From positions 1 to 38,039 of the forward strand of contig CAMEEX010000009.1 in assembly GCA_945915235.1 (NCBI GenBank): 38,039 nucleotides of DNA, written 5' to 3'. Positions 3,423-30,497 of this stretch are shown here, in pieces. Position 1 is the stretch's first letter. Each line of letters starts with the position of its first letter. The notes below the pieces were generated by a model, which worked only from the letters and a program-made list of their open reading frames with translations, did not search any database and was not told where the DNA came from. Position numbers and translations under genes: made by a program. This DNA is from an uncultured Clostridia bacterium. Lineage in GTDB: Bacteria; Bacillota; Clostridia; Lachnospirales; Lachnospiraceae.

Positions 3423-3623
3423 GTGGACAGACAGACCGTGACGCAGCGAGTGGCGCGCTATTTAGAAGAGAACCATATATCGGCAGTGCAGGTTGGGCAT
3501 GACCTTGGAATTTCCGCTGATAAATTGACATGTGAGAAGAATATGGAGTTAGATGCGGCAGAGTTTTTGGAGCTGTGCAGGTATCTCAATGTCAAGCCTG
3601 AGAAGTTTAGGAGGAACGAATGA
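3423..3623 (+). CDS. small HTH-like protein, ATGA-overlapped with the downstream PAPS-reductase-like gene
   Basis: 66 aa VTQRVARYLEENHISAVQVGHDLGISADKLTCEKNMELDAAEFLELCRYLNVKPEKF resembles XRE HTH; GTG start. Confidence 0.6.
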   Translation: MDRQTVTQRVARYLEENHISAVQVGHDLGISADKLTCEKNMELDAAEFLELCRYLNVKPEKFRRNE

Positions 3624-5344: not shown

Positions 5345-5423
5345 TGCAAAATTGTGCCGCCGGGCGGCATGGAGATAAGTGCGAAGGATATATCCATTTG
5401 CTATAGAATTTCGGAGGAAAATT

Positions 5424-6314: not shown

Positions 6315-6316
6315 CG

Positions 6317-9802: not shown

Positions 9803-9878
9803 AAAAACAAAGTGTGCAGCATTTAGGAGATTGACTCCGAACAGCTGCAACAAAATTATATAAATTTGGAGATTACGA

Positions 9879-11063: not shown

Positions 11064-11075
11064 GAGGAAGAAGAG

Positions 11076-12932
11076 ATGATTGCAAAAGAAGCATCAATAA
11101 AAGACGTGGTGGAGACAGAACCACATAGATTGGAAGTACCTTTTTTTCAGAGAAGATATGTATGGGAAGAAGAGAATTGGGAGGAAATGCTGCAGGCGAT
11201 AGAAAATTTTGACGAGGAAAGACCGTTCTGGGGCTCAATAATAATAAAAAAAGCAGGAAAGGACAAAAACAGAAAATTTGGAAGGGCGTATATTATTGAC
11301 GGTCAGCAAAGACTGACCACTATAGCTATCCTGACAAAGGCAATATATGACTCGGCAAATAAGCAGGAGAGGGAGAAAAGGTTTAGAAGAATTGTCGATT
11401 GTGATTTGCTTTTTAATCCATATGCGTCCGCAGCACCTGATGAATACGAGATTATAATTGAACATTCAAGGGCGGACAGAAAAGATTTTGAATATATCAT
11501 CAAAACGGGTATTTTCAATGACGAGGAAATACATATTGATACCAGCCAGGTAAATATGGATAAGCATACAGGAAGCGCAATTCTTAGATGCTATCTGTAT
11601 TACATGGAGATTATGAAAAAGAAGTCCCAGAAGGATTTAGAGCTTCTTATGAACAATCTGTACAATGATGAGAAGGTATTTGTTCTGATTACTTTAGACG
11701 ATGATGATATTAACGAACAGATAATATTCGACTCGATTAACAGGGCGGGACAGAAGCTTACGACATCGGATATCATAAAAAATAATATATTTAAAAAGCT
11801 GATGTCACATACGGAAAATAATCAGATTGTTGAAAAGAATTGTGATATTTATTGGGACAATATTTTTTGGGAAGATGAGTTCTGGTACACCAGCCGTCAG
11901 TTTGGAAACACGGAGAGGTCACACATCGACTTTTTATTATATTGTGTGGCATGTAATTTATGGTCAGAAGATGTTCTGCTGGAAAAGGGTATCAACTGTT
12001 CACTTGAAAAGGTATATGAGGAAAATACAAGTGAATATGGATATGATGAGATATTCAATGTCATCAGGAAAATAGCGGAGTTTGCCATCATATATAAAAA
12101 ATATATTTACAATTTTTCCCAGAATTTGGAGAATGAGACATTCAGTAAAAACGATAATCTGAAAAGACTTTTATTGATTATGGATAAATTTAAAATTCAA
12201 ATGTTTTATCCTGTTGTGTTAAAGCTGCTCTCAGAAAGTGTTGTTCATTGTGATTTAGAGAAAAAAGAGGTGGAAAGTGACTTAAACAGCAGTAAATGCA
12301 CTATAGGCGCACATTGTCTTGAGACCTATATTGTCCGCCATAAAATTACAGGTTCGAGTACTTCACAGTATTCAAAAAAATGTCTGGACGTAATTAGAAA
12401 TGGGTTTTCTGTTCTTTATTCAGACGCTAAGTCAAATAAATTGCAGATTATTAACGATGAAAATGACAGGATAAGGGAGGAACTTGAGCACCCTAAAACC
12501 GATGTAGCAAAGATGCTTTTATTTTGTCTCGAGCTTGAAAAATGGGACGAAAAGGACGATATAAATTCATTTTCGTATAATTTTGAATTGGAGCATATTA
12601 TGCCGAAACAGTGGGAACAGCATTGGGCTCTGACAAGGGGAAATTCATCGCCTGATGAAAGAAATGCTGCGATTAACAGCATAGGAAATATGCTTTTGTT
12701 GAGTCAGGGGTTAAACAAGCACATCAAAAACAGGGAATTTCGCATAAAGGTAGAAGGTGAAATAAAAGGAAAGAAGAAACTGGAGGGCTATAAGGATAAG
12801 ACACAGTTAAAGACCACAAAAGAGATAATAGATGCGTACAATAATGGAAAAACAGATTGGACTGAGACAGATATACATAACAGGACGCAGAAAATATATG
12901 AGGCTGTAATTTCACATTGGAATATAGAATAA
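11076..12932 (+). CDS. sspE: DUF262-DUF1524 protein, PT-sensing restriction effector candidate (SspE-like)
   Basis: DUF262: VPFFQRRYVWEEENWEEML and IIDGQQRLTTIAIL; DUF1524: FELEHIMPKQWEQHW...NSIGNMLLLSQGLNKHIKNREF. Confidence 0.78.
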   Translation: MIAKEASIKDVVETEPHRLEVPFFQRRYVWEEENWEEMLQAIENFDEERPFWGSIIIKKAGKDKNRKFGRAYIIDGQQRLTTIAILTKAIYDSANKQEREKRFRRIVDCDLLFNPYASAAPDEYEIIIEHSRADRKDFEYIIKTGIFNDEEIHIDTSQVNMDKHTGSAILRCYLYYMEIMKKKSQKDLELLMNNLYNDEKVFVLITLDDDDINEQIIFDSINRAGQKLTTSDIIKNNIFKKLMSHTENNQIVEKNCDIYWDNIFWEDEFWYTSRQFGNTERSHIDFLLYCVACNLWSEDVLLEKGINCSLEKVYEENTSEYGYDEIFNVIRKIAEFAIIYKKYIYNFSQNLENETFSKNDNLKRLLLIMDKFKIQMFYPVVLKLLSESVVHCDLEKKEVESDLNSSKCTIGAHCLETYIVRHKITGSSTSQYSKKCLDVIRNGFSVLYSDAKSNKLQIINDENDRIREELEHPKTDVAKMLLFCLELEKWDEKDDINSFSYNFELEHIMPKQWEQHWALTRGNSSPDERNAAINSIGNMLLLSQGLNKHIKNREFRIKVEGEIKGKKKLEGYKDKTQLKTTKEIIDAYNNGKTDWTETDIHNRTQKIYEAVISHWNIE

Positions 12933-12952
12933 CGGGAGAGGAGGCATCAAAA

Positions 12953-13105
12953 ATGAACAACATCGATGAAAAACTGGTCAAATCCGTCATGTTTGAAATC
13001 CTTCATCTTGAGCGAAAGAACCTCAGAACCAAGGCGCTCACAGACCAGAAGATGGCGGAGGAGATTGGGAAGATTATCAGCGAAAATCTGAAACTAAGCA
13101 AATAG
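12953..13105 (+). CDS. small protein of PT-linked cassette (50 aa)
   Basis: RBS GAGAGGAGG then ATG at 12953; tight operon spacing. Confidence 0.55.
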   Translation: MNNIDEKLVKSVMFEILHLERKNLRTKALTDQKMAEEIGKIISENLKLSK

Positions 13106-13124
13106 CGGGGAGGAGAAGGTACGA

Positions 13125-15158
13125 ATGAAGTTTAAGACACTTAAAATGAAGAATTTTATGCGTTACAAGGGTGTGAATGAGATTAATTTTAGCTGCGACG
13201 AGGAGCACAATGTCACGGTGGTATTGGGGGATAACACTGTCGGCAAGACGACGATAGCGCAGGCTTTCCGTTGGTGTCTGTATGGGGCGATTATGACCGA
13301 GCGCGGAAAGAAGGAGAGCGATTATCAGCTGCTTAACAATGATGTCCTCGCAAAGCTCGATGCGAACAGGACAGCGACGGTGTTCGTCGAGATAACGGCG
13401 ACGGACAATGAGCATCTGTATACCGTTCACAGGGAGATTGAGTACATGAGAGTGTACCCGAAATTTCTCACGAAGGAGTCCTACAAGACGTTGAAAATGT
13501 TTATCGCCGATGTGGACAGCCCTGACATAAAGCGCGAGGTTGAGCCGGGTGTAAATAATGTCAAAATCGACGAATTTATAAACGGGCTTTTTCCTAAAAA
13601 TCTGTCGCATTATTTTCTCTTTGACGGCGAGCGATGGGGCGATTTTGCACTGAACGGAGTGCGCGAAAATATCAAGGAGTCGGTGCATATTTTAACGGGC
13701 TTGTCCGCGTACAAATCGGCGATGATGCATCTTAAGGATATGGGAGACAACTCCGTAATTAAAAAATTCAGGAAAAATATTCAGGGCAAGGGAAACATAT
13801 ACGATGACTATGAGCGGGACAAGACGAGATTGGAGCGGGATATTGAGAGATGCCAAAAGCAGATAGAAAGTCTGGACGCGACAATCAGCCTTTGTAACAA
13901 AAAGTGTGAGGAGATTGAGTTGTATCTGGAGGCAAATAAGGATACGGAGCAGCTTCAGCAGGCATACAGGCAGTGCCAGAGCGTGATCAGGGCGCAGAGT
14001 GAAAGATACCTCGCAAACTACAGGACGTTTGTGCTCGAGTATAACGCAAATGCGTACAGAGTGTTTGCAAAGCCGCTTATCGAGGCTTCGTTAAGGCTGG
14101 TAAAGTCGATAGCGGGCGAGAGGCGTGACATACCGCATATGAGGCAGGCGAGCATTGATTTCATAATAAGGAGCGGGCGGTGTATATGCGGAACCCCGAT
14201 AACGAAGGATTCTTATGCGCTCGAGTGTCTCCTTGAACAGAGAAATTACCTTCCGCCAGCCGACATGGGTTCACTTCTGGGGGAATTTGAGAAAACAGCC
14301 AACCGCTGGAACAGGGTCGAAGATGATTTGGCGGAGGATGCGGCAAAGGTTGACGACAGTGTAAGGGACTATGAGGAAAACTGTATCCAGCTTCAGAAGA
14401 TTGAGCAGAAAATGAGCCGGAATATTAATTTTTCCGAAAAGAGGGCTGAACTCAAGCGCTATAGGAATGAAGCGAACAGCGCTGCGCTGAAAAAGGGCGA
14501 GCTAAAGAGCGCCATAGCATCAAATCAGAGCAGAATTCAGAGCATTGAAATCCAGATGAGAAATCAGGAGGCAAAAAATGCCGAGAATGAAAAGTGGCGG
14601 AGAAAAATCGAGCTTGCGGAAGCTGTGTACGACAAAATCAGTGCTGACTTTTCCGAGCGCGAGAAGAAAATTTTTTATGAGTTCAACAATGAGATACAGG
14701 CTAATTTTTCAAAGATGTTCAACGCAAAGGACAAGAAAATAAAGCTTACCGAAAATTATGAGATACAGATGTGCTACAAGACTGACATAGGAGGCTACAG
14801 GGAGGAGAAAAATCTGTCCGAGGGTGAGAAGGTTGCCAGAAATTTTGCTTTCATTGTCACGATAATGGACTACAGCCGCCGCAAGAAGCTTGAGTACAAC
14901 AGCGGCAACGCAGATATAAACAATGACGGAAATGATACACTTCCTATCGTTCTTGACGGACCATTTTCAAAGCTTGGCGAGGAGAATATTTCGCTCGTGG
15001 CGAATGTGCTCCCGCAGGTTTCGGAGCAGGTGATTGTGTTCATGCTGCGAAAGGACTGGGCGTATACAGGGCTCGACAAATACGTCGGGGCAGAGTACTC
15101 GATTGACAAGAAGCCTGATGAGAGCTTCGCATCTATAAGAAAGGTGGACAGGGCGTAG
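13125..15158 (+). CDS. DndD/SMC-like AAA ATPase
   Basis: MKFKTLKMKNFMRYKGVNEINF, Walker A GDNTVGKTTIAQAFRWCLYG, central coiled coil, CXC (RCICG), ABC signature NLSEGEKVARNFAF, Walker B LPIVLDGPF. Confidence 0.78.
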   Translation: MKFKTLKMKNFMRYKGVNEINFSCDEEHNVTVVLGDNTVGKTTIAQAFRWCLYGAIMTERGKKESDYQLLNNDVLAKLDANRTATVFVEITATDNEHLYTVHREIEYMRVYPKFLTKESYKTLKMFIADVDSPDIKREVEPGVNNVKIDEFINGLFPKNLSHYFLFDGERWGDFALNGVRENIKESVHILTGLSAYKSAMMHLKDMGDNSVIKKFRKNIQGKGNIYDDYERDKTRLERDIERCQKQIESLDATISLCNKKCEEIELYLEANKDTEQLQQAYRQCQSVIRAQSERYLANYRTFVLEYNANAYRVFAKPLIEASLRLVKSIAGERRDIPHMRQASIDFIIRSGRCICGTPITKDSYALECLLEQRNYLPPADMGSLLGEFEKTANRWNRVEDDLAEDAAKVDDSVRDYEENCIQLQKIEQKMSRNINFSEKRAELKRYRNEANSAALKKGELKSAIASNQSRIQSIEIQMRNQEAKNAENEKWRRKIELAEAVYDKISADFSEREKKIFYEFNNEIQANFSKMFNAKDKKIKLTENYEIQMCYKTDIGGYREEKNLSEGEKVARNFAFIVTIMDYSRRKKLEYNSGNADINNDGNDTLPIVLDGPFSKLGEENISLVANVLPQVSEQVIVFMLRKDWAYTGLDKYVGAEYSIDKKPDESFASIRKVDRA

Positions 15159-15664
15159 TGGCGGATTTTGAATTTTTTAAGAAGCAGTTTGAGTTTAAGG
15201 GTAAACACTCGAGAATGGTGAGTGAGCTGTGCATTGCAAACGACTACGAGCACACTTATTTCAAGCGAGTGATAGACGTATATATTTTTGCAGCCATAAT
15301 AGGCATAAGGATTGACAGAAAGGCTTCCGAGGACTACTCGCCGGTTGAGACTAAGAGTATTTTTCCAGAGCAGATGATAAATGCCAAGGAGGACTTGGAT
15401 TTCATAATGCAGATGATGGTGATGCTTGACCCGGCGTCCGGTGCGACTGACGAGGACAGGGTGCGCGAGGCATTCAGGGGCGCACAGACAAAGGAAGAGT
15501 ATGACAGGCTTATGGGAACCTTCAACGACTATGTGCGCGGAGGCGTCGAGGAGCTATACGAGAGGCTTGTTGTACGCAAGCCCGACTCCGAGGACAGGTT
15601 CTACGACGAAAAGACGGCTAATCTGATGGCACTCTATGACCGGTTTGCACCTAAAGAAGCGTGA
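15158..15664 (+). CDS. hypothetical protein, last gene of PT-linked cassette
   Basis: GTG start overlapping the stop of the ATPase gene; 168 aa. Confidence 0.65.
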   Translation: MADFEFFKKQFEFKGKHSRMVSELCIANDYEHTYFKRVIDVYIFAAIIGIRIDRKASEDYSPVETKSIFPEQMINAKEDLDFIMQMMVMLDPASGATDEDRVREAFRGAQTKEEYDRLMGTFNDYVRGGVEELYERLVVRKPDSEDRFYDEKTANLMALYDRFAPKEA

Positions 15665-15729
15665 AAATATTATCATATACAAATATAGTTGATTTTTAAT
15701 AAAAAATAGACAAATTTACAAAATAAGTC

Positions 15730-15758
15730 TTTACTTTTCTAAATAGATGAGATATAAT
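15730..15758 (+). promoter_or_regulatory. tracrRNA (and possibly cas operon) promoter
   Basis: TTTACT (15730-15735), 17 bp, TATAAT (15753-15758). Confidence 0.75.
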
Positions 15759-15764
15759 AAAAGC

Positions 15765-15881
15765 ACGTTATATCATACCAAGCGATAAACGGTTACAACA
15801 ATAAGGTCACCGCCTTTGGCGGTGTACCTCAAAGCTCTAATCCCATCTAAAGTGAATACTTTAGGTGGGATTATCTATTTT
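15765..15881 (+). ncRNA. tracrRNA
   Basis: Anti-repeat TTATATCATACCAAGCGATAA...ACAACAAT (15768-15802) pairs with the array repeat; nexus hairpin AGGTCACCGCCTTTGGCGGTGTACCT; terminator hairpin 15839-15872 then ATCTATTTT; layout resembles N. meningitidis tracrRNA. Confidence 0.85.
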
Positions 15882-15899
15882 ACGCGGAAAGGAATACTT

Positions 15900-18800
15900 A
15901 TGGAGGAAATGAAGCATTTAAACAGAAAAGCAGAGGTACCTAAGCCGGCAGATTTGAATTACAGAATAGGGCTTGATATAGGTATCGCGTCGGTCGGGTG
16001 GGCTGTGCTTGAGAACAACACTCATGACGAGCCGTTCAGAATTATTGATTTGGGAGTGAGGATTTTTGATACGGCGGAGCAGCCTAAGACGGGGGCGTCG
16101 CTCGCACTGCCAAGGCGTGAGGCACGTTCAGCCAGAAGAAGGCTCAGAAGGCGCGGACACAGATTAGAGCGCATCAAGAAGCTTTTTGAGGCGGAAGGAC
16201 TTATCGACATTGAGGAGTTTGAGGCACGCTACAGGAGAGCAGGGCTGCCTGACGTGTATAAGCTAAGATATGAGGGCCTTGACAGAAAACTTACCAATGA
16301 TGAGCTGGCACAGGTTTTGCTACATATTGCTAAGCATAGAGGATTTAAGTCGACGAGCAAGGCGGCGGACGGAGTCGATTCGGATACGGGAGAGGTTAAA
16401 AAGAGTATAAGCGCTAATAAGGCACTCATGCAGGAGAAGGAGTACCGTACGGTCGGCGAGATGATTTATCTTGATGAAAAATTCCGCACTGACTGTCCTT
16501 GGAGCGAAAACGGATACATACTCACACCGCGCAATAAGTCGGGTGATTACAAGCACACGGTTCTTAGAGATATGCTTGCCGATGAGGTGAGGGAGATATT
16601 TAAGGCGCAGAGAGCTCTGGAAAATGATGCTGCCACAGAGGAGCTTGAGAAGGGATACTTTGACATTATGCTCAGCCAGCGCTCATTTGACATGGGACCG
16701 GGCGCACCGAGCAAGTACGCCATGGAGGGCTTTGAGGACAGAGTCGGGCTGTGTACCTTCGAGGGTAAGAACGGAGAAAAGCGTGCTCCAAAAGCTGCTT
16801 ATACCTCTGAGCTTTTTGTCGCGCTTGAGAAGATAAACCATACGAAAATAGTGTCTGCCGATGGGAGTACAAGATTTTTTACGAGCGATGAGCGTCATGC
16901 CATTATAGCTCTTATGCACAGGCAGCAGACGGTAAAATACACCGCTGTGCGTAAGGCGATTGGCTTGGCGGAGGCGGATAAGTTCTATAATCTTAATTAT
17001 AGTCCGAAATCCGGAAACAAAAAATCTCCGGAAGATATTGATTTTGTAAAAATGGAGAATTATCACAAGATACGCAAGGCGCTCGGGGAAGAGGTTGTCT
17101 CGGAACATTTGTCACCGGATAAGATAAAGCTGTACGACGACATAGCTAAGATACTTACATTATACAAGAACGATGACAGCAGAATAAGGCGTTTGGCTGA
17201 ACTTGGCATCGCTCCGGAATGTTATGATGCACTGCTTGAAATGTCACCGAGCAAATTTCATAATCTATCACTCAAGACCATGGGGAAAATTATTCCGTTC
17301 CTGCTTCAGGGAAATACTTACGATAAGGCTTGTGAGCTTGCGGGGTATGATTTCAGGGCTGAGAATAACGGCGAAAAGTCGATTTTGTTAAAAGGTAAAA
17401 ATATCACAAACATAGTAAATGATATCACAAATCCTGTTGTCAGACGCTCGGTATCGCAGACCATCAAGGTAATTAATGCGATTATACTCGAGTACGGCAG
17501 TCCGCAGGCTGTGAACATTGAGCTCGCGAGAGAAATGTCGAAGGATTTCGATGAGAGAAGAAAAATCAAGTCCGACATGGAGGCAAGAGAGAAGGAAAAT
17601 GACAAGGTTTTAAAGCGCGTCAGGGAATACAAGCCAAATCCGACTGGGCAGGATATCGTAAAGTTCCGTCTTTGGGAGGAACAGGGCGGAGTATGTCTTT
17701 ATTCAGGCGAAAAGATTGATATAAATGACCTTTTCTCACAGGACGGTGGATATGATGTTGACCATATATTGCCGTACAGCATTACCTTTGACGACTCATA
17801 TCGCAACAAGGTGCTCGTGAAGGCTTCGGAGAACAGGCAGAAGGGCAACAGGACTCCTTACGAGTATTTCATGGCTGAGAAGGGCGAGCCGGCGTGGAGC
17901 AAATATGAGGCACTGGTCAAAAATACCGTTAAGGATTATAAAAAACAGCTTAAGCTCCTGAAAAAGCATATATCTGACGAGGAGAAAGCGGAGTTTAAGG
18001 AGCGCAATCTCACTGATACAAAGTACATAACAAGAATTATTTATAATATGATACGCCAGAACCTTGTGTTAAAGCCGTACCTCAATCTCGATAGGGAGAG
18101 AAAAAAGCAGGTTGTGGCTGTAAACGGAACTATAACACATTATCTAAGCAAGAGATGGGGACTTGCGGGCAAGGACAGACGCACCGACACCCATCACGCA
18201 CAGGACGCTGTTGTCATAGCATGTACAACCGATGGAATGATTAACAGGATATCCCGCTATTCAAAGGGAAGAGAGTTAGCTTATTCGAGAGGCTTCGAGT
18301 TCGTGGATGATGAGACGGGAGAAATATTAAACCGTGACAATTTTTCGCGCGAGGACTGGGACGAGAAGTTCGGAGTAAGACTTCCGTTGCCGTGGGAGCA
18401 TTTTAGGGATGAGCTGGATATTCGTATGTCAAGATACAGCACAATGGGAGAAAGTGTTGCCGCTGGGACATCGCCGAGGGAATTTATTCTGTCGCACAGA
18501 GATGTGTTTAATTGGATAAATTATCCTGAGTGGATGTTCGTCGAGGGCAGACCGGGACGCAGGGGCGTACTTGATGGAATATTTGTCTCGCGAATGCCAA
18601 ATCACAAGGTCAGCGGACAGGCACACGAGGAGACTATACGGTCGGCGAAGTATTATGAGGACGGGGGAAGTGTCTTTGAAACCGGCGGCTATGTGGTCAC
18701 TAAGAAATCTATTCAGGATATCAAACTGAAAGATGGCGAAATAAAGGAATTTTTTAACCCTGACAGTGACAGACTGCTCTACGAGGCACTGGTCGACCGA

Positions 18801-19406
18801 CTTAATCAGTACGGAAATGACCCTAAAAAGGCTTTTGCAGAGCCGTTCTATAAACCAAAGTCGGATGGAACTCCGGGACCGGTGGTCAAGAAAATTAAGG
18901 TGTTTGAAAAGCAGACATCAGGAGTGCTTGTAAGAGATGGAAATGGTATAGCCGCCAACGGTTCCATGGTAAGAATTGATGTGTTCTGCGAGGAAAGCAA
19001 GGGTAAGAAAAAATACTATTTTGTTCCGATTTACACGGCTGATGTGGTGAAGAAAAGATTGCCTAATCGCGCGGCTACAGCTAATAAGATGTTGTCAGAA
19101 TGGCGTGTGATGAATGATGAGAATTTTATTTTCAGCCTTTATTCGAGGGATTTGATTTATATTGAGAGTGATAAGGGGGTAGCTGTAAAAACAATTGATG
19201 GACAAACCATACGAGTGCAGAGTTTATACGCGTATTTTACAGGTGCTAATACAGCTACGGCAAGTATAGCAGGAAAACTTCATGATAGTGGCGCAACATA
19301 TGAAAGTCTTGGAATTCAGGGCTTAAAAAATATTCAAAAATGTCAGGTCGATGTGCTTGGAAATGTTTCATTTGTAAAAAAAGAGAAACGCATGACATTC
19401 AATTAG
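15900..19406 (+). CDS. cas9: CRISPR-associated endonuclease Cas9 (type II-C size, ~1168 aa)
   Basis: RuvC-I YRIGLDIGIASVGWAVL; Arg-rich bridge helix RREARSARRRLRRRGHRLERI; HNH DVDHILPYSITFDDSYRNKVLV; RuvC-III HHAQDAVVIAC; RBS ggaaagg before ATG 15900. Confidence 0.95.
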   Translation: MEEMKHLNRKAEVPKPADLNYRIGLDIGIASVGWAVLENNTHDEPFRIIDLGVRIFDTAEQPKTGASLALPRREARSARRRLRRRGHRLERIKKLFEAEGLIDIEEFEARYRRAGLPDVYKLRYEGLDRKLTNDELAQVLLHIAKHRGFKSTSKAADGVDSDTGEVKKSISANKALMQEKEYRTVGEMIYLDEKFRTDCPWSENGYILTPRNKSGDYKHTVLRDMLADEVREIFKAQRALENDAATEELEKGYFDIMLSQRSFDMGPGAPSKYAMEGFEDRVGLCTFEGKNGEKRAPKAAYTSELFVALEKINHTKIVSADGSTRFFTSDERHAIIALMHRQQTVKYTAVRKAIGLAEADKFYNLNYSPKSGNKKSPEDIDFVKMENYHKIRKALGEEVVSEHLSPDKIKLYDDIAKILTLYKNDDSRIRRLAELGIAPECYDALLEMSPSKFHNLSLKTMGKIIPFLLQGNTYDKACELAGYDFRAENNGEKSILLKGKNITNIVNDITNPVVRRSVSQTIKVINAIILEYGSPQAVNIELAREMSKDFDERRKIKSDMEAREKENDKVLKRVREYKPNPTGQDIVKFRLWEEQGGVCLYSGEKIDINDLFSQDGGYDVDHILPYSITFDDSYRNKVLVKASENRQKGNRTPYEYFMAEKGEPAWSKYEALVKNTVKDYKKQLKLLKKHISDEEKAEFKERNLTDTKYITRIIYNMIRQNLVLKPYLNLDRERKKQVVAVNGTITHYLSKRWGLAGKDRRTDTHHAQDAVVIACTTDGMINRISRYSKGRELAYSRGFEFVDDETGEILNRDNFSREDWDEKFGVRLPLPWEHFRDELDIRMSRYSTMGESVAAGTSPREFILSHRDVFNWINYPEWMFVEGRPGRRGVLDGIFVSRMPNHKVSGQAHEETIRSAKYYEDGGSVFETGGYVVTKKSIQDIKLKDGEIKEFFNPDSDRLLYEALVDRLNQYGNDPKKAFAEPFYKPKSDGTPGPVVKKIKVFEKQTSGVLVRDGNGIAANGSMVRIDVFCEESKGKKKYYFVPIYTADVVKKRLPNRAATANKMLSEWRVMNDENFIFSLYSRDLIYIESDKGVAVKTIDGQTIRVQSLYAYFTGANTATASIAGKLHDSGATYESLGIQGLKNIQKCQVDVLGNVSFVKKEKRMTFN

Positions 19407-19422
19407 TTTTCGGGAGGTATAT

Positions 19423-20325
19423 ATGGGATATCGTAACATAAAGATTGACAGTTCTATAGGTCTGCATATCAAAAACGAGCAGCTGGTTATAGGCGAAAAG
19501 GGCGTCAGTTTTCCGCTGGAGGATATTAACTGTGTTCTGATAGAAAATCAGGCTGTTACGATATCAGCATATATGCTTTCGGAGTTTGCAAAACAGGGAA
19601 TTGCTTTGTATGTATGCGATGAAAAACATCTTCCAAATGCGGTACTTCTTCCGATGGCGAAGCACAGCAGACATTTCAAACTGCTCACCAAGCAGATTGA
19701 GGTTGGAAAGCCGTTGATTAAGCGGTTGTGGCAACAGATTATTGTGTGTAAGATAAAAAATCAGGCATTGTGTCTCAAAGAGATGGGGCTTGATGGATAT
19801 GAAAAGCTTCTTTCTATGACAAAGGAAGTGCAGTCAGGAGATAAAACGCATGTCGAGGCAAAGGCAGCGGCATACTATTTTCGTGTTTTGTATGGTGATG
19901 GATTTACAAGAGCAGATGAGTGTATTATAAATTCTGCGATGAATTACGCATATGCGATAATAAGGGGGTTGATTGCAAGGTCGGTTGTGTGTTATGGTTT
20001 GGAGCCTTCGCTCGGAATGTTCCATCACAGCGAACTGAATGGATTTAATCTGGCAGATGACCTTATTGAAGTGTTTAGACCATTGGTTGATTTGTATGTG
20101 GCAAGCCATTTTGATATTTCGGAGGTTGACGCCGATTTGACTCCGCAGATAAAAAGAGAGTTATTTAATATAATTAACTACGATATGTCAGTGAAAGGAG
20201 AGAAGCGCATTATCAGCAACTGTATTGACATGCTTGTCTACAGCTATAGTGGGGCGATACAGGGAAACAGAACTGACTTGGAACTCCCGGAATTGATACC
20301 GTTGCAGGTGCATAGCTATGAATAA
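19423..20325 (+). CDS. cas1: CRISPR-associated endonuclease Cas1
   Basis: Type II Cas1: NCVLIENQAVTISAYMLSEFAKQGIALYVCDEKHLPNAVLLP; GLEPSLGMFHHSELNGFNLADDLIEVFRPLVD. Confidence 0.95.
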   Translation: MGYRNIKIDSSIGLHIKNEQLVIGEKGVSFPLEDINCVLIENQAVTISAYMLSEFAKQGIALYVCDEKHLPNAVLLPMAKHSRHFKLLTKQIEVGKPLIKRLWQQIIVCKIKNQALCLKEMGLDGYEKLLSMTKEVQSGDKTHVEAKAAAYYFRVLYGDGFTRADECIINSAMNYAYAIIRGLIARSVVCYGLEPSLGMFHHSELNGFNLADDLIEVFRPLVDLYVASHFDISEVDADLTPQIKRELFNIINYDMSVKGEKRIISNCIDMLVYSYSGAIQGNRTDLELPELIPLQVHSYE

Positions 20326-20638
20326 ATTTATGAGACTGATGGTATTTTTTGATTTGCCTGTCGTAAAGGACAGGGACAGAAAGGCGGCAGCGAAATTTCG
20401 CAGATTTCTTTTAAAAGACGGATATGTGATGGTTCAGTGGTCTGTATATTCAAGATTATGTAATGGCGTGGACTCAATCGAGATGCACAAGCAACGTTTA
20501 AAGCAAAATCTGCCTCAAAAGGGAGCGGTTCGCTGTCTGATATTGTCTGAAAAACAGTATTCATCTATAGATATTCTTTTGGGAACATCGACCTTCCACG
20601 ATATGGACGAGTCTACGGATTTGATAAATATTTTTTAA
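20318..20638 (+). CDS. cas2: CRISPR-associated endoribonuclease Cas2
   Basis: MRLMVFFDLPVVKDRDRKAAAKFRRFLLKDGYVMVQWSVYSRLC; overlaps cas1 by 8 nt. Confidence 0.95.
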   Translation: MNKFMRLMVFFDLPVVKDRDRKAAAKFRRFLLKDGYVMVQWSVYSRLCNGVDSIEMHKQRLKQNLPQKGAVRCLILSEKQYSSIDILLGTSTFHDMDESTDLINIF

Positions 20639-20692
20639 AAAAAGAATGGTTTGAGAGTTAAAAAGCATAATTGTGATTTGTTTTTTACATGC

Positions 20693-20730
20693 AAAATCCC
20701 CGTGAATATAAGTAATCACGGGGATTTTTT
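20693..20730. terminator. Bidirectional terminator between cas2 and array
   Basis: AAAATCCCCGTG - 12-nt loop - CACGGGGATTTTTT; U tract on both strands. Confidence 0.75.
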
Positions 20731-23700
20731 GTTCCCTATTATATCATACCAAGCGATAACTGGGAACAACAACTCACGTGCTCCAGTCCAGTTCTTTTTC
20801 TTATTATATCATACCAAGCGATAACTGGGAACAACAACTGCCCGTGCTGACACTCGAAAAGGCACGGAATTATATCATACCAAGCGATAACTGGGAACAA
20901 CAACTGCAGCAGAACAAAGGAGGACACAAAAATGATTATATCATACCAAGCGATAACTGGGAACAACAACCGGCCCCCGTGGATCCCGGCCAGCATCTCG
21001 ATTATATCATACCAAGCGATAACTGGGAACAACAACTCGAGCCGGTGAGCCGCTGGAAGGCGCAGCATTATATCATACCAAGCGATAACTGGGAACAACA
21101 ACTGATCCCGAAGTGGGGAACGCTTGGCGGGTATTATATCATACCAAGCGATAACTGGGAACAACAACTCGCTTCGAGATTCACGGTCTCGATCGCCAAT
21201 TATATCATACCAAGCGATAACTGGGAACAACAACACCCGCTTTGCCTGTCCTTTGGAGCTCCGGATTATATCATACCAAGCGATAACTGGGAACAACAAC
21301 CGGCCCCCGTGGATCCCGGCCAGCATCTCGATTATATCATACCAAGCGATAACTGGGAACAACAACGCGAAGGCCCGCGGGTATCACGATATTGAATTAT
21401 ATCATACCAAGCGATAACTGGGAACAACAACTAATATGTCGTCCACGGTGGAAGTGCGGAGATTATATCATACCAAGCGATAACTGGGAACAACAACTAC
21501 TTGAGAGCTTTTGTACCATTTGATTTTATTATATCATACCAAGCGATAACTGGGAACAACAACTTGTAATTTCGTCATAATAAAAACCACCTTATTATAT
21601 CATACCAAGCGATAACTGGGAACAACAACACGCTGCCAAAACCGCCAGAAAGAACATTATTATATCATACCAAGCGATAACTGGGAACAACAACCGGGTG
21701 AGTTTTTCGCTGACGCATTAGCAATTATATCATACCAAGCGATAACTGGGAACAACAACTTCCATTGTTGCCTCCTTTGTTCTTTAATAATTATATCATA
21801 CCAAGCGATAACTGGGAACAACAACAGCCGGGAACGTACCGTGAAGAGGACGTGCATTATATCATACCAAGCGATAACTGGGAACAACAACTGTATGCAA
21901 AGCGGACGCCTACAAGATAGAATTATATCATACCAAGCGATAACTGGGAACAACAACTAATCTTCTTGAGTGGGTACTCACTCATTAATTATATCATACC
22001 AAGCGATAACTGGGAACAACAACGACGACGAGCTCATGCTTAATGTCGAGAAGATTATATCATACCAAGCGATAACTGGGAACAACAACTATCCAGTGTT
22101 CGGGATTTGGCGAGTGCTGATTATATCATACCAAGCGATAACTGGGAACAACAACTGACAGGACACACACACACACACACACACAATTATATCATACCAA
22201 GCGATAACTGGGAACAACAACGGACACAGACGGATGAGTATGTGCTGAGAAATTATATCATACCAAGCGATAACTGGGAACAACAACCTTTTTTATTTGT
22301 ATAATCTTCCCAATAAAATTATATCATACCAAGCGATAACTGGGAACAACAACACAGGATAAGGCAGCAGTACAAGAGGGGTAATTATATCATACCAAGC
22401 GATAACTGGGAACAACAACCATACCTACAAAAAGAACTGAAGCTTGCCATTATATCATACCAAGCGATAACTGGGAACAACAACTCTATCATAAAAAGAT
22501 AAACGCTTGAATATATTATATCATACCAAGCGATAACTGGGAACAACAACGTTGTATAAACTATTAATTATATGGCTTAAATTATATCATACCAAGCGAT
22601 AACTGGGAACAACAACGTCCTCGGGTTAATCAAAATCATGCTCACAATTATATCATACCAAGCGATAACTGGGAACAACAACATTTCATTATCTGCTGTA
22701 TAGGTACTTAAAATTATATCATACCAAGCGATAACTGGGAACAACAACATTTACTAAACCATATACTACATTATCCAATTATATCATACCAAGCGATAAC
22801 TGGGAACAACAACGCCTTGATGTCCTTTAATCTCACCGTGAGTATTATATCATACCAAGCGATAACTGGGAACAACAACCTTTAATCCCATCACATAATC
22901 CATAGATAAATTATATCATACCAAGCGATAACTGGGAACAACAACCTACCTACCAAAATGTTAATTAAGCCTCTGATTATATCATACCAAGCGATAACTG
23001 GGAACAACAACTTATTGTGTTATATTCAATGTACCGGATCTATTATATCATACCAAGCGATAACTGGGAACAACAACCCCAGCGGCACCGCAGTGCCATT
23101 CAACATAATTATATCATACCAAGCGATAACTGGGAACAACAACTTTTCTTGTTACAATTCTTTTTGGCTTGACATTATATCATACCAAGCGATAACTGGG
23201 AACAACAACATTTACCGCGTTGTCAGGCTGTTTAAACGATTATATCATACCAAGCGATAACTGGGAACAACAACTACCCTTGCAAGAGTGACGAGCAACA
23301 GAGAATTATATCATACCAAGCGATAACTGGGAACAACAACGAAATGTATTCGAAACAGAGGGCGGAGGATATTATATCATACCAAGCGATAACTGGGAAC
23401 AACAACTGGTTTAGTGATATTTTTCAGCTTCTTTGATTATATCATACCAAGCGATAACTGGGAACAACAACCAGGCGTAATACCATTTTGCTAGGAGGAA
23501 TATTATATCATACCAAGCGATAACTGGGAACAACAACATTTACCGCGTTGTCAGGCTGTTTAAACGATTATATCATACCAAGCGATAACTGGGAACAACA
23601 ACTACCCTTGCAAGAGTGACGAGCAACAGAGAATTATATCATACCAAGCGATAACTGGGAACAACAACCGATTGACGGAGCTATTGTCGGTTGTACAGAT

Positions 23701-24730
23701 TATATCATACCAAGCGATAACTGGGAACAACAACATAAGCGGGCGAGGGCGATTAACTCAGGGATTATATCATACCAAGCGATAACTGGGAACAACAACT
23801 TTAATAGTTTATACCACGCACATACAAGTATTATATCATACCAAGCGATAACTGGGAACAACAACCAACAAATCTATCGTATGCACACTGTAAGTATTAT
23901 ATCATACCAAGCGATAACTGGGAACAACAACTGACTGCGGTATGGTAGATGCGGAGGTTGATTATATCATACCAAGCGATAACTGGGAACAACAACGTTA
24001 TTACTTGCCATCCTGTACCCCCTTAAATTATATCATACCAAGCGATAACTGGGAACAACAACTTAGGGTTGTACGTTGTAACTCTTGGTGCTATTATATC
24101 ATACCAAGCGATAACTGGGAACAACAACATTCAAGTTGATGAAAATGGGGGTGATAATATTATATCATACCAAGCGATAACTGGGAACAACAACATTCAC
24201 AATAACACCCCCTTTGCTATATGATTATATCATACCAAGCGATAACTGGGAACAACAACACGGTGCCGCCTGCTATGCACTGGCACACAATTATATCATA
24301 CCAAGCGATAACTGGGAACAACAACGTTTGATTGAAGAAACCTAGGACAGCTCTGATTATATCATACCAAGCGATAACTGGGAACAACAACCTTTTGATA
24401 ATTTAAGTTTCTGAAAACAAATTATATCATACCAAGCGATAACTGGGAACAACAACTGGCCAAGATGGCCATGGCTGAGGCCGAAAATTATATCATACCA
24501 AGCGATAACTGGGAACAACAACCTTAACGGTTCCACAACAGGCGGTGCCGTTATTATATCATACCAAGCGATAACTGGGAACAACAACGCGAGGAAAATC
24601 TCTGGGGCAATATCTGGAATTATATCATACCAAGCGATAACTGGGAACAACAACATTCGCAATCTATACATGTGTTAAAATTTATTATATCATACCAAGC
24701 GATAACTGGGAACAACAACCAATCACGACC

Positions 24731-25982
24731 CACGACAAACGCATGAATGATTATTTTCTCCAAATTTTTTCTCTTACCATTTTTTAAGCTTCTAGAATTT
24801 CTTCCAAGAATTGAATTGGACGCAAACTTATTACAAATCGTTTCTTTTTCATCGACAATTTATGTCTTGTCAGTTCTGCCGGTTTTAAAATACTCAGACT
24901 CCATTTCCTTATGATATTCAAATTTTGTGCCGCCATCTTATCGATGGTTGTATTCGCATCTTCTTTAAATGTCACATCTAAGTGCCAGTGCATGCTTTCT
25001 ATACTCCAATGTCCCCTTACTGCCCGGCTCACTTCTTTTATATCTGTTTTCAGACTACTTATAAAGTAGCGATATTCTTCCGATTCTTCTCCATCTTTCT
25101 GGATGCTTTTCTTCTCCATTACAATACTTTTCAAGCCCTTCCAGTTTTTCTTTTGACCCAGCCAGTCGATGTCTTCCGTCTGATAATACTCCCGTATTTC
25201 TATTTGTCCATGCGCCTTTTCATATGTTCTTCTATAATTTCCCTCTCTCCGGATTGCTTTTATAAATTCTTCATTTGAAAAATATTCTTTTACATCTTCA
25301 TAGAAACAGCTCTGGTTTTTCTTCAATGCCAATACATAGTCTGCCCGTTTCTCCCTGATTTTTTCTGCAATTGCCGTCTGCGTCCCCATTGCATCAATCG
25401 TTATAATCTGACCTTTTATCTGGATTTTGTCCAGTAATTCCGGAATTGCTGTAATCTCATTGCTTTTTTCTTCCACTGCTTTTTGTCCAAGACTGAACCC
25501 GTCTTCTTTACTCCATGCCGAGACAATGTGGGCTGCTTTTTCCTCTCCACGCTTACTGGAACGCATCGTTTTTCCATCAATACAGATGATTTTTTTCAAC
25601 AGTTCCCCATCATTCTGGTTTAAACGTTCCTGCCACTTCCCATAAAGTTGCTGGAGAATTTCAGGTGCAATCATTCCCATTACGCGTCGAATCGTATCAT
25701 GTGATGGCACTCCGTTCTTCAGTTCTATATATTTTCGAAGATAATCCTGATAGCAGTCTGCAAACAATGCCATTTCTACCCAGTCATCTGCATTTGCAAG
25801 TGTGGCAAAAAGCACGATTACCAGAATGTCCTTCAGTTTATGACGGACTTTTTTCTGCTGACGATTATCCTCAATGTATTCCATCCAATCTAATAATTCC
25901 TGCATATACCAACACCCCTTTTCTTTTTATTTTACCAGAAAATGGGCGTGTTCACAATTTATTTACTCATGCGTTTGTCGTG
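24731..25982 (-). mobile_element. ISAs1-family-like insertion sequence inserted in a CRISPR spacer
   Basis: 16-bp perfect terminal IR CACGACAAACGCATGA ... TCATGCGTTTGTCGTG; 9-bp target duplication ATCACGACC at 24722-24730 and 25983-25991. Confidence 0.93.
24784..25905 (-). CDS. ISAs1-family-like transposase
   Basis: 373 aa; KLKDILVIVLFATLANADDWVEM, PSHDTIRRVMGMI, ICIDGKTMRSS, HIVSAWSKEDGFSLGQKAVEEKSNEITAIPELL, RGHWSIESMHWHLDVTFKEDA. Confidence 0.92.
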   Translation of the reverse strand: MQELLDWMEYIEDNRQQKKVRHKLKDILVIVLFATLANADDWVEMALFADCYQDYLRKYIELKNGVPSHDTIRRVMGMIAPEILQQLYGKWQERLNQNDGELLKKIICIDGKTMRSSKRGEEKAAHIVSAWSKEDGFSLGQKAVEEKSNEITAIPELLDKIQIKGQIITIDAMGTQTAIAEKIREKRADYVLALKKNQSCFYEDVKEYFSNEEFIKAIRREGNYRRTYEKAHGQIEIREYYQTEDIDWLGQKKNWKGLKSIVMEKKSIQKDGEESEEYRYFISSLKTDIKEVSRAVRGHWSIESMHWHLDVTFKEDANTTIDKMAAQNLNIIRKWSLSILKPAELTRHKLSMKKKRFVISLRPIQFLEEILEA

Positions 25983-27034
25983 ATCACGACCTTGGCGGCA
26001 AAATGACCGATTATATCATACCAAGCGATAACTGGGAACAACAACCTATCGTTACTCGACTCAATTGTATAATCAATTATATCATACCAAGCGATAACTG
26101 GGAACAACAACCGGTGCTCTTCTTCAAGCTCTTCACGCGACATTATATCATACCAAGCGATAACTGGGAACAACAACACATTAAGTTTAAAAAATGTGCG
26201 TGGAAAAATTATATCATACCAAGCGATAACTGGGAACAACAACTTCCGCGTCAGATAACGAGTCTATTTTGTATTATATCATACCAAGCGATAACTGGGA
26301 ACAACAACTTTTACAAGTTATAGCTTGTACCCTTTCCTATTATATCATATCAAGCGATAACTGGGAACAACAACCAAAACTCACACAGAATGATGCAACG
26401 GGGTATTATATCATACCAAGCGATAACTGGGAACAACAACCTCCCATCATAACCGATTTACGGCTGATTGATTATATCATACCAAGCGATAACTGGGAAC
26501 AACAACTGATTTTGCATTGCCTGATATTGTTCTTGTATTATATCATACCAAGCGATAACTGGGAACAACAACCAACCGCCGAAGGCGGCGCACTGCCGGG
26601 GTATTATATCATACCAAGCGATAACTGGGAACAACAACAGGCGGAAAATTTGGTGACGGCGCATACAAATTATATCATACCAAGCGATAACTGGGAACAA
26701 CAACCTTGACAGCAACGATTACACGTTGGAAGGGATTATATCATACCAAGCGATAACTGGGAACAACAACAGGCGGAATACGTCCTTAATACGGTCACTA
26801 ATTATATCATACCAAGCGATAACTGGGAACAACAACAGCCGCTTCACAGGATAGACAGTCAGCGTTATTATATCATACCAAGCGATAACTGGGAACAACA
26901 ACAAACTATCTAATGGCAACACCGGAACAAGAATTATATCATACCAAGCGATAACTGGGAACAACAACGTCCTTAGAAGCTGCATAATATCCTAATGATT
27001 ATATCATACCAAGCGATAACCGGGAAAAACAACT

Positions 27035-27610
27035 AAACCTTGCGGCAAGTATATATATCCAGATGTATATCGCAGACATCAGAGGTGCAGATGTACTGTG
27101 GAGTATGATTCTGGGAGTGGTAAAGTCCAGAATGTTCATACGAAGCAGTGGAAAAGTATTGCTGGAAGTGATAAGATTGAAGCAAGAAAATTGACGGGTT
27201 TAGATGCTTCCGACGATGAAGTACAGAAGCATATAAGAGAAGAACTTATATCAAACTGTGATATAGATAACATTACCAATGACTAGGGCGTCCACAGACA
27301 AGGAACCAGAAGATATGAAGAATGTAAAGACATGCTGGAAGCCAAGGGACAGTATGGTTCTTCATATTTGCCAGTTAGTGATGATGAGGTTCTTGAACTA
27401 GTGCATAAATATTCAGGAAAAGGCGAAATACGAGTTGACTGTTCTGATAGGTGAAATAATAGAGAGGCAATTGTGAAAAATGACAAGATAGTGGGTGTTG
27501 TAGTTAATAACATGAATGGCAAGTCTGCGGAAACATCTGTGTTTAAAATTCACTACGCGAAAAAAGAATTTCATATTGTTCTGGACTATCCGAGCAAAAA
27601 GGAGGCAGTA
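27035..27610 (+). pseudogene. 3' remnant of prophage minor head (MuF-like) protein with C-terminal toxin-50-like domain
   Basis: Single frame KPCGKYIYPDVYRRHQRCRCTVEYDSGSGKVQNVHTKQWK...(TAG 27284)...KGQYGSSYLPVSDDEVLELVHKYSGKGEIRVDCSDR (TGA 27452) NNREAIVKNDKIVGVVVNNMNGKSAETSVFKIHYAKKEFHIVLDYPSKK. Confidence 0.65.
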
Positions 27611-27814
27611 ATGAAATATGAGATAATAGAAAAGTTTATAGATAAGAAAGTTATTTTGACTGATATTGATGGGAAGAGGTTCAGAGGAGTAATAACCAAT
27701 ACGGAAAGTGAATTTGATACGCTTTCAGGCAAAACGGAGGTTGAATTATATATTGGGAAAATATATATTGGGATACCATTTGATGAAATAGAAAATATTA
27801 TAGAGATTGAATAG
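27611..27814 (+). CDS. small protein, candidate immunity protein for the decayed toxin
   Basis: ATG 27611 preceded by AAGGAGG; 67 aa MKYEIIEKFIDKKVILTDIDGKRFRGVITNTESEFDTLSGKTEVELYIGKIYIGIPFDEIENIIEIE. Confidence 0.5.
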   Translation: MKYEIIEKFIDKKVILTDIDGKRFRGVITNTESEFDTLSGKTEVELYIGKIYIGIPFDEIENIIEIE

Positions 27815-28322
27815 CCGCCTGAGAAGGAGGTCTTTTCATGTTAAGTTGCACCGGTGCATGTATGGCTGACAAGATGAGAAAAGGCTGCCAGACGCCAACT
27901 CAATCCGTTGCCCTGCTTTATTATGAGTCCAACGGTGACATTGTATAAAGAGACGGGAAGAAAAGCTCAGAAATGTCAAGTTTAATAAAAATGCAAACAA
28001 CAGATTACACATGGATTGCCTGCATGAAGTGAGGGAACTTATGCATGCCCCAAAAGTAAGTGGTGATATCCGGCTATATTGTTCCGGAATTTTGTAAGGG
28101 ATGCAATGGAGAGACAATATTAATAAAAATCTGAACAAGATCGCCTTAGCGCTGAATAATTAATTTTCCCGTTGGGAGAATTGGTTGTTCGGTGTTTTTT
28201 GTTGAACTGTACTTTTTATAGAACAGGTGCCAAGTATAATGAGGGTAACAAACAAAAGCCGCGAATTGCAATACAAAATAGGCATTAGTTTACAGCCAAA
28301 AAATGGCAGAAAGGTGGCAGTT

Positions 28323-28535
28323 ATGCATATTTTAGCATTTATTTTATTTTTTGTGATGTGTTCAATTGGAGCAGCCTGCAAGGGAGATTATTCAGGATTA
28401 GCGGTAATAGGAAAAGTCATTGGATTTTTTGCATTATGGATTGGAATGATGTTTTTGTTTACACAGCCGGTATTGCTGTTTGTGGTGATAGTGATTATCG
28501 TTATTGTTTTTGTTGCCTTGAATTCCAAGACATAA
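28323..28535 (+). CDS. small membrane protein (70 aa)
   Basis: RBS AGAAAGGTGG then ATG; hydrophobic segments MHILAFILFFVMCSIGAAC and VIGFFALWIGMMFLFTQPVLLFVVIVIIVIVFVAL. Confidence 0.5.
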   Translation: MHILAFILFFVMCSIGAACKGDYSGLAVIGKVIGFFALWIGMMFLFTQPVLLFVVIVIIVIVFVALNSKT

Positions 28536-28664
28536 TGGGTAAAGATATAGGAATATGAAAAGTTTATCTGCCTTATAAAAGAACTCTACTTTTATTCTAC
28601 ATGAAAAAGTTGAAACAATATGAGAGTGGTATAAAATAAGATTAGCAGGTAACGGAGGAAAATT

Positions 28665-30140
28665 ATGAGAGACTATAGTTTTGGAAATTTTATCAGTACA
28701 TTGAGGGAGAGAGGTGGCATGTCTCAATATCAATTAGGTACACTCGTCGGTGTTTCGGATAAGGCGGTGTCAAAATGGGAAAATGGAGCTTCCAAGCCAA
28801 GAACAGATGTTATAAAAAAACTGGCAAAGGTTTTAGGTGTAAGCGTTGACGAGTTGTTAACCTGCGAATATGATTCTTCAAATTATGTAAGAAAGGAATT
28901 ATTTGCATTGAATAATAAAATTATTAAGCAGGCAGAAAAAAGGTTGAAAGAGCTATACGGGGACAAACCGCCGGTGATAATGGCTAACAGATTTAAGACA
29001 GAACAGATTATGCTTGATGGGCAGGAAACACTTCTGTGGATGGGATTTATGGGAGAGTTATATGGAAAATGCCGTGAAGCGGGAGCGTACTTTGAAGTAA
29101 GAAATGCCCAGATGGGAGCATCTCTTATTGCATGGCTTTTGGGTGGAACAAATGTGAATCCTTTGCCGGCGCACTATTATTGTCCGGCGTGTCATAAAAT
29201 TCAATTTATACCAAATGTAAAATGTGGGTTAGATGCTCCAAATAAAAAATGTATATGTGGAATGGAGTATTATAAGGATGGTTTCGGAATTGATGTAGGG
29301 AATATGTATCCTATTGAAAGAAGTAATGACATATATGTTTCTAACAATACAACGAAAATTGTGGAGGAATGTCTGAATGATTATTTCTTAAAATATGGCA
29401 GAATAAGAAAATTTAATATAATTTATACACCTATAACAGATGTGGAAATTCCGGAGGGCGATGATATTATTGGAACAAAGTTTGCACTGATATCACAGGA
29501 GATGTCAAAAGAGTTTCCTGAATATATAATAACAATGCAGTATGAGGATTTTCGTAAGGTGCGAGATGAATTTTCTATATTGACTGTTAATGAGAACAAA
29601 CAGGAGTATATATCTTTTTTTGACATGGAAAAGATAGGATATACAGACAAACAAATAAGATCGTATATTAATTATTCAGTGAAGGAGTGTGCGTTTAGAC
29701 ATTATTACAGCGGAGTAGATTTGAATAAATTATTTAAAAATCCTGACAATATGAATTTTAGTGGGTTGCTTGCGGTTTATGGTTTTTTACATGGCACCAA
29801 CGCATGGGAAAATAACTCGGAGTTTTTATACGAAAAGGGAATCCCAATGAATGATCTGATTTCATGCCGTGAGGATGTTTATTCTTATTTGTACCATAAG
29901 ATAGAGACAAAATATAACAATCCTTTAGGCTTGGTATTTGAAATAAAAGAGGATGTACGCAAAGGGAAATACTTTTATAATGGCATGCCTGCAGAAATCG
30001 AAAAATTGCTGTCAGAATGTGAAGTTCCTGATTGGTATATAGAAAGTATGAAAAAAATCAGATATTTGTTTCCAAAAACAAATTTGACTGTGCAGTTGAA
30101 ACGTAATGTATGCAAGACGTTGATGAAAAATGGATATTAA
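28665..30140 (+). CDS. XRE HTH protein fused to a PolC-like (DNA polymerase III alpha, Gram-positive type) region lacking recognisable catalytic motif
   Basis: N-term FISTLRERGGMSQYQLGTLVGVSDKAVSKWENGASKPRTDVIKKLAKVL; then NPLPAHYYCPACHKIQF..CGLDAPNKKCICGMEYYKDGFGID and FSGLLAVYGFLHGTNAWENN...LISCREDVYSYL...DVRKGKYF...EVPDWYIESMKKIRYLFPK as in PolC. Confidence 0.8.
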   Translation: MRDYSFGNFISTLRERGGMSQYQLGTLVGVSDKAVSKWENGASKPRTDVIKKLAKVLGVSVDELLTCEYDSSNYVRKELFALNNKIIKQAEKRLKELYGDKPPVIMANRFKTEQIMLDGQETLLWMGFMGELYGKCREAGAYFEVRNAQMGASLIAWLLGGTNVNPLPAHYYCPACHKIQFIPNVKCGLDAPNKKCICGMEYYKDGFGIDVGNMYPIERSNDIYVSNNTTKIVEECLNDYFLKYGRIRKFNIIYTPITDVEIPEGDDIIGTKFALISQEMSKEFPEYIITMQYEDFRKVRDEFSILTVNENKQEYISFFDMEKIGYTDKQIRSYINYSVKECAFRHYYSGVDLNKLFKNPDNMNFSGLLAVYGFLHGTNAWENNSEFLYEKGIPMNDLISCREDVYSYLYHKIETKYNNPLGLVFEIKEDVRKGKYFYNGMPAEIEKLLSECEVPDWYIESMKKIRYLFPKTNLTVQLKRNVCKTLMKNGY

Positions 30141-30308: not shown

Positions 30309-30497
30309 GTGGCATATACTAAGAAGGACGCGTATGATTATATCAATCGCTATCAGCGCGAAAAATATGACAGAATAACGATACTCAGGAAATCGGGTGA
30401 AAAAGAGCGCCTGACGAATATTGCCAAGAGTAACGGATACAAGACTGTAACAGAGTTTATCAATGCGTGCATTGATGAAAAGATCAGCAAAATGTAG
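30309..30497 (+). CDS. small protein, possible ribbon-helix-helix/antitoxin-like
   Basis: 62 aa MAYTKKDAYDYINRYQREKYDRITILRKSGEKERLTNIAKSNGYKTVTEFINACIDEKISKM. Confidence 0.55.
   Translation: MAYTKKDAYDYINRYQREKYDRITILRKSGEKERLTNIAKSNGYKTVTEFINACIDEKISKM

Follow-up and report, generated by a model that had tools for sequence, protein, structure and literature searches.

C-family polymerases are described as having three absolutely conserved catalytic Asp residues, with PHP and (HhH)2 domains that are nearly universal (PMC3919608). The survey behind this description discarded sequences lacking an intact active site, so proteins like the one reported here would be missing from it. For Enterococcus faecium PolC (9qpc), the residues of the inhibitor/nucleotide pocket have been named as H1185, Y1274, F1276, H1280, and Y1284 (PMC12592400).

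On the regulator side, XRE repressors of the RstR, DicA, and C-protein kinds are small (~70–135 aa) and carry no enzyme-derived domain. As a kind, the protein described below can be grouped with one-component regulators built on a reused enzyme domain. ImuB, which comes from a different polymerase family and acts in induced mutagenesis, has no comparable DNA-binding regulator domain. It does offer a likeness, since this Y-family protein retains the polymerase fold after the loss of catalysis (mentioned in PMC3919608). The repressor Stl of SaPI1 is derepressed by the phage protein Sri, which chiefly targets the replication protein DnaI (PMC9638917).

Here we report a gene, HTH-PolC, that fuses an XRE helix-turn-helix (HTH) to part of PolC, located in a 38,039-nucleotide stretch of DNA (the window) from an uncultured Lachnospiraceae bacterium. 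HTH-PolC shares its HTH family with the small repressors and has the N-terminal palm, four-Cys site, and fingers collinear with those of PolC (3f2b, 9qpc), its fingers being ~40% identical to PolCs. It differs from PolC in the N-terminal XRE HTH, in length (491 aa vs. ~1400 aa), and in the absence of the catalytic Asp motifs, the PHP and exonuclease domains, and the post-fingers parts. In the open-access literature we found no description of dead PolC paralogs, of decoys, or of a protein in which a DNA-binding domain is joined to a dead replicase core; as far as we found, a non-catalytic regulatory or decoy reuse of a replicative polymerase core would be the first for the C family.

Results

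HTH-PolC joins an XRE helix-turn-helix to part of PolC

The HTH-PolC gene is a single open frame encoding 491 aa, with an ATG start, beginning ATGAGAGACTATAG, behind a good ribosome-binding site, AACGGAGGA (Table 1). As the original prediction had it, the product opens with an XRE HTH: Pfam places an HTH_3 domain at residues 12–64 (E = 5.9e-16), followed by a linker from about residue 67. The nearest type is that of the RstR repressors (NCBIfam, 6.9e-15), and a five-helix HTH in the structure model together with matches to known repressors identifies this part as the Cro/cI-type HTH of an XRE-family transcriptional regulator.

The region after the HTH, predicted to be PolC-like, matched the NCBIfam profiles NF001688 (6.1e-48) and TIGR01405 (4.7e-43) as well as PolC chains in the PDB (3f2b, Geobacillus PolC, 1.1e-32; 9qpc, 3e-32). 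Each of the two PDB matches consists of two collinear stretches, residues ~83–210 (N-terminal palm and zinc site) and ~356–475 (fingers), with a shortened middle. Profile-profile alignment (hhalign) of the two known HTH-PolCs against 25 PolCs was collinear over residues 86–478 (probability 100, E = 2.2e-43). The prediction depended on a significant PolC match past residue 70, and with these matches in place it survives; the E-values of the profiles (6.1e-48, 1.1e-32, 2.2e-43) rule out chance PolC-like words. HTH-PolC therefore has the homologous N-terminal palm, zinc site, and fingers of the C family in order. The similarity starts at the N-terminal palm and the frame terminates 16 residues past the fingers; HTH-PolC has neither a PHP nor an exonuclease domain and nothing of PolC past the fingers (tandem HhH, OB), and so lacks both the PHP and the (HhH)2 domains typical of C-family polymerases.

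Table 1. Features of the HTH-PolC gene and its surroundings (positions in the window, or in the named locus where a handle is given).
Feature	Position	Strand	Basis or remark
HTH-PolC fusion gene	28665..30140	+	ORF; PolC profile 6e-48; homolog of like architecture, 59% identity
XRE helix-turn-helix, RstR/HTH_3 type, residues 1–66	28665..28862	+	Pfam HTH_3, NCBIfam RstR; 83% identity to homolog; dN/dS 0.10
Linker helix, residues 67–92	28863..28940	+	weakly constrained, dN/dS 0.49; model helix 74–98
N-terminal palm of PolC, residues 93–172	28941..29180	+	PDB matches, alignments, profile-profile
PolC four-Cys site, C173, C176, C196, C198	29181..29258	+	alignments; all present in both HTH-PolC homologs
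Catalytic palm, shortened and rewritten, residues 211–355	29295..29729	+	without PDIDLNF, GQHPGG, LKLDILGHDD; model pLDDT <50 at 247–323
PolC fingers, residues 356–475	29730..30089	+	HGTNAWENN, REDVY, DVRKGK, WYIES, KKIRYLFPK; pLDDT mostly 78–95
Candidate private operator CTCTACTTTTATTCTACA, TCTAC repeated 11 bp apart	28584..28601	+	18-bp motif at −81
Sigma-70-like promoter, TTGAAA-16-TAAAAT	28610..28637	+	10/12 matches; just downstream of operator; TAAAATAA conserved in homolog
Ribosome-binding site AACGGAGGA	28651..28659	+	conserved in homolog
Variable defence island, HTH-PolC as last gene	3620..30140	.	~27 kb; congener G001 with other cargo
Ssp/Dnd/Pbe-like set	3620-15661		in defence island
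Cas9, putative Cas1 and Cas2	15816-20638		Cas1 and Cas2 named by eye
CRISPR array, 76 repeats, ~29–30 bp spacers	20740-26980		split by transposase gene
ISAs1-like transposase gene inside CRISPR array	24784-25905		named by eye
Mini-PolCs, 312–334 aa	L102:497-1501; L103:6130-7095; L104:5734-6702; L105:6192-7163; L108:8569-9507		matching boundaries, REDV(Y/F)

The catalytic motifs are lost while part of the nucleotide pocket is kept

The host genome encodes a separate PolC (1407 aa as far as the contig end) with intact motifs, as had been expected. The motifs PDIDLNFSGEYQ, GSRGSVGSS, DILGHDD, GQHPGG, and FPKAHA are present in this host PolC and absent from both HTH-PolC and its homolog, which agrees with the proposed replacement of the catalytic Asp and GSRGSVGSS motifs; in the N-terminal palm, VRNAQMGAS stands in place of GSRGSVGSS, with one Arg and G..S retained. 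The three catalytic Asp residues, carried in the host enzyme by PDIDLNFSGEYQ and LKLDILGHDD, have no counterpart in HTH-PolC, and the PDIDLNFSGEYQ stretch falls into a gap of the hhalign alignment. Motif replacement is only part of the change, however: the palm is also shortened (~146 residues vs. ~207 in PolC), and residues 211–355 could not be aligned to PolC with confidence. Of the columns invariant among the PolCs compared, HTH-PolC keeps 24/43 in the N-terminal palm and zinc site and 21/36 in the fingers, as against 6/56 in the catalytic palm. Judging from the sequence, polymerase activity has almost certainly been lost, and the loss of motifs led us to reject a polymerase-active PolC. 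Three of the pocket residues have counterparts in HTH-PolC (H1185 as H376, Y1274 as Y467, F1276 as F469); H1280 is replaced by N473 (His in the homolog) and Y1284 is lost. The VRKGK and YLFPK motifs are retained.

An AF2 model built with PolC rows in the alignment was confident for the HTH and the fingers, but pLDDT was <50 for most of residues 208–323. Foldseek with this model returned five significant PDB matches, all of them PolC; XRE repressors, Stl among them, came next, Stl matching the HTH part. Since PolC rows had been supplied, neither the PolC-like model nor the Foldseek result is independent of them. Without PolC rows the model was poor and uninformative (pLDDT 44). The expectation of a PolC fold thus held for the fingers but not for the middle of the palm.

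A homolog in another genus is under purifying selection

The search for further HTH-PolC fusions and their neighbourhoods, suggested with the original prediction, yielded one, a 491-aa homolog from a Lachnospira MAG (L044, identical to L060) that matches HTH-PolC in architecture and ends and is 59% identical to it. Nei-Gojobori estimates of dN/dS between the two genes, which are rough because synonymous sites are near saturation, were ~0.19 overall, 0.10 for the HTH, 0.11 for the N-terminal palm and zinc site, 0.33 for the middle, and 0.49 for the linker. On this comparison, the gene is kept intact by selection and is not debris. With the family-specific middle as query, 388 class-level and 299 phylum-level genomes yielded no third HTH-PolC, indicating that the HTH form is rare; two such genes are known from our search. 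The entries L061–L071, from a scan of genome contigs, look like ordinary PolCs, L060 alone being an HTH-PolC. By tblastn, no phage record covered 80% of the HTH-PolC query, and the plasmid records that reached this coverage are full-length PolCs; "PolC" matches on Lactococcus plasmids were likewise rejected as short relatives, being full 1339-aa PolCs. The two HTH-PolC loci have no neighbour genes in common, and a type II toxin-antitoxin pair is ruled out by the lack of a partner gene conserved beside both.

A candidate operator occurs only at the HTH-PolC promoter

Upstream of the two HTH-PolC genes, identity is 84% at −82 to −64 and 28–32% beyond −83, with further similarity around the ribosome-binding site and the −10 box. 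The pattern CTCTACTTTNNTTCTACA, defining a candidate operator that was drawn from two sequences, occurs exactly once in the host genome and once in the Lachnospira genome (G249), both times at −81 of the HTH-PolC gene. At up to 2 mismatches, the pattern gave background-level matches only, besides the own promoter, in both genomes, which speaks against a wider regulon. Since the motif occurs once per genome, at its own gene, HTH-PolC probably controls only itself. We suggest that it is probably autoregulated via the −81 site with no wider regulon, by either repression or activation.

HTH-PolC closes a variable defence island

HTH-PolC is the last gene of an island (Table 1) bounded by ilvN, ilvC, and an HTH gene at one end and by a rhomboid-like gene at the other. 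The congener G001 has the same flanking genes around different cargo, apparently a transporter set. The GC content of the gene is 34.7% vs. ~45% in the flanks, and the Lachnospira copy has 34.6% in surroundings of 33–37%. This match between low-GC copies and the Lachnospira surroundings suggests that the gene was likely acquired horizontally, from a low-GC relative. The phosphorothioation-type set at 3620-15661 is mixed, with BrxP/SspD-like, SspB, SspC, SspA/DndA, Orf5/HEC-06-like, and PbeC/DndD-like genes. Comparison of the CRISPR spacers with the HTH-PolC gene gave a best match with 7 mismatches of 26. Two small ORFs beside HTH-PolC, 27473-27814 (113 aa) and 30309-30497 (62 aa), had no NCBIfam match.

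Discussion

HTH-PolC as a possible autoregulated PolC mimic

We tentatively favour, short of any real confidence, the reading that HTH-PolC is an autoregulated PolC mimic, a decoy or sensor possibly directed against phage factors that target PolC. HTH-PolC would bind its own operator at −81 and set its own level, and its PolC-like part would mimic the host replicase, retained since something binds that surface; the likeliest binder would be a factor, encoded by a phage or a mobile element, by which PolC is attacked or recruited. Once such a factor had bound the mimic, the HTH would be released or altered and HTH-PolC synthesis would change, and the protein would then titrate the factor as an autoregulated decoy. 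The conserved homolog, the signs of purifying selection, the private candidate operator, and the island context all strengthen the original idea of an exapted polymerase scaffold. PolC homology together with motif loss, and a low GC shared with the Lachnospira copy, likewise count for the mimic. Since no other target of the operator-like motif was found, HTH-PolC itself is the likeliest output; control of nothing but its own gene would be hard to reconcile with a general sensor and would suit a decoy or sensor whose dose is controlled, and for this reason we place PolC mimicry ahead of nucleotide sensing and of a silenced inhibitor. Against the mimic, HTH-PolC is known from two genes, the candidate operator was drawn from two sequences, and the retained fingers residues include those of the nucleotide pocket, which suits the binding of a ligand no less than the mimicry of a protein. 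A version responding to the clamp seems least likely, since HTH-PolC has none of the PolC parts that lie C-terminal to the fingers.

The SaPI repressor Stl is comparable in having an XRE HTH with a large C-terminal part and in the logic proposed here, by which phage factors directed at host replication would be sensed. Stl resembles DnaI, the target of its inducer, in neither sequence nor structure, whereas the C-terminal part of HTH-PolC is itself copied from a replication protein. Nor does HTH-PolC control a SaPI-like element: control of island genes of the Stl type was not seen, the motif at ≤2 mismatches being found only at the own promoter plus background. If the mimic idea is true, HTH-PolC would offer a handle on phage factors targeting PolC, at which antibiotics are currently aimed, and would allow guard/decoy logic in bacterial immunity to be studied in a simple case of one gene.

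We consider it possible, though on the doubtful side, that HTH-PolC is instead a nucleotide-sensing one-component regulator, in which the dead PolC core binds a dNTP or analogue and signals nucleotide status to the HTH. Loss of catalysis while the pocket stays is a common route from enzyme to sensor, and the pocket is partly kept here (H376, Y467, F469, and N473, which is His in the homolog), as are VRKGK and YLFPK. However, Y1284 is not kept and GSRGS is altered, PolC normally binds dNTP together with template-primer whereas the parts that hold DNA are largely missing from HTH-PolC, and with no target found beyond its own promoter this would be a general sensor without output.

An unlikely alternative is abortive infection by a silenced replication inhibitor, the HTH keeping expression low until, on infection, the PolC-like part accumulates as a dominant-negative poison of the replisome. 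The defence-island location, the autoregulation-like candidate operator, and the retention of fingers and N-terminal palm all suit such an inhibitor, but the absence of the PHP, exonuclease, and post-fingers parts (tandem HhH, OB) means that contacts to DNA and replisome are largely lost, and no antitoxin partner is conserved beside HTH-PolC.

It is quite unlikely, too, that a mobile element's repressor for immunity or maintenance acquired a polC fragment merely as a dimerisation or stability domain, a reading prompted by the RstR-like HTH, the low GC, and the island context. The N-terminal palm, zinc site, and fingers are more constrained than the linker, pocket residues are kept that a passive tail would not need, and no integrase was recognised beside the gene in either genome. 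That a decayed polC fragment was joined to an HTH by accident is scarcely credible, for although the gene is rare and its catalytic part deleted, debris or a frameshift is contradicted by a homolog from another genus that is 59% identical and has matching architecture and ends, by dN/dS of ~0.19, by the absence of any frameshift, and by the conservation of candidate operator, promoter, and ribosome-binding site.

Mini-PolCs without the HTH in other Lachnospiraceae islands

A search of Lachnospiraceae and the order revealed six HTH-less PolC relatives of 312–404 aa (L102–L106, L108), for which we found no description in the literature. Like HTH-PolC, these mini-PolCs begin at the N-terminal palm, have a shortened palm, and end at the fingers helix, the fingers of HTH-PolC stopping at the same point. 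Five of the six have REDVY or REDVF, and both HTH-PolCs have REDVY, at the place where almost all PolCs that we examined have RDDIM; in 5/6 the first catalytic Asp is lost and the second is replaced by Glu. They differ from HTH-PolC in lacking the HTH and the zinc cysteines and in sitting in multigene islands, several of which carry a WYL regulator, an MBL-fold hydrolase, an FtsH-like AAA protease (IetA-like), and nuclease-like genes. A tree grouped the five REDV(Y/F) mini-PolCs with HTH-PolC (support 98/94, or 98/96 without the longest rows), a grouping in which long branches meet and the signature is short.

The occurrence of a mini-PolC beside a truncated DnaA in one island, and of a more diverged one with TIR and FtsZ-like genes in another, is expected if copies of the host replication machinery serve as bait, and so suits the autoregulated PolC mimic. 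With some scepticism, the idea may be widened to a Lachnospiraceae family of dead, exapted replicase cores (mini-PolCs with or without an HTH) that, along with truncated DnaA, extra DnaB, and FtsZ-like proteins, would act as bait for phage proteins hitting host replication; HTH-PolC would be its self-contained form, with bait, sensor, and switch in one autoregulated protein. If true, such islands would be categorically new.

Several of these loci showed further features. In L104, a DnaA cut to its AAA+ domain (6714-7454; profile positions 106–337 of 437) adjoins the mini-PolC. In L107 (4205-7224), an extra full-length DnaB (458 aa) and a 478-aa DnaE-like protein lie where related islands have the mini-PolC. 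At L106:721-7227, two TIR genes, a 557-aa gene, a 262-aa tubulin/FtsZ-like gene, and a diverged 404-aa mini-PolC follow in a row; this looks like a defence cluster and matched no known one. A conserved protein of ~111–124 aa without a PADLOC match accompanies islands of the mini-PolC type (L105:9907-10281, L107:2181-2516, L103:7116-7454). Finally, L039:613-3390 encodes a second PolC, of 925 aa, that has PHP and exonuclease-like parts, keeps PDIDLNF intact, and ends soon after the fingers (no HhH/OB); an HTH-regulator-like ORF lies opposite it.
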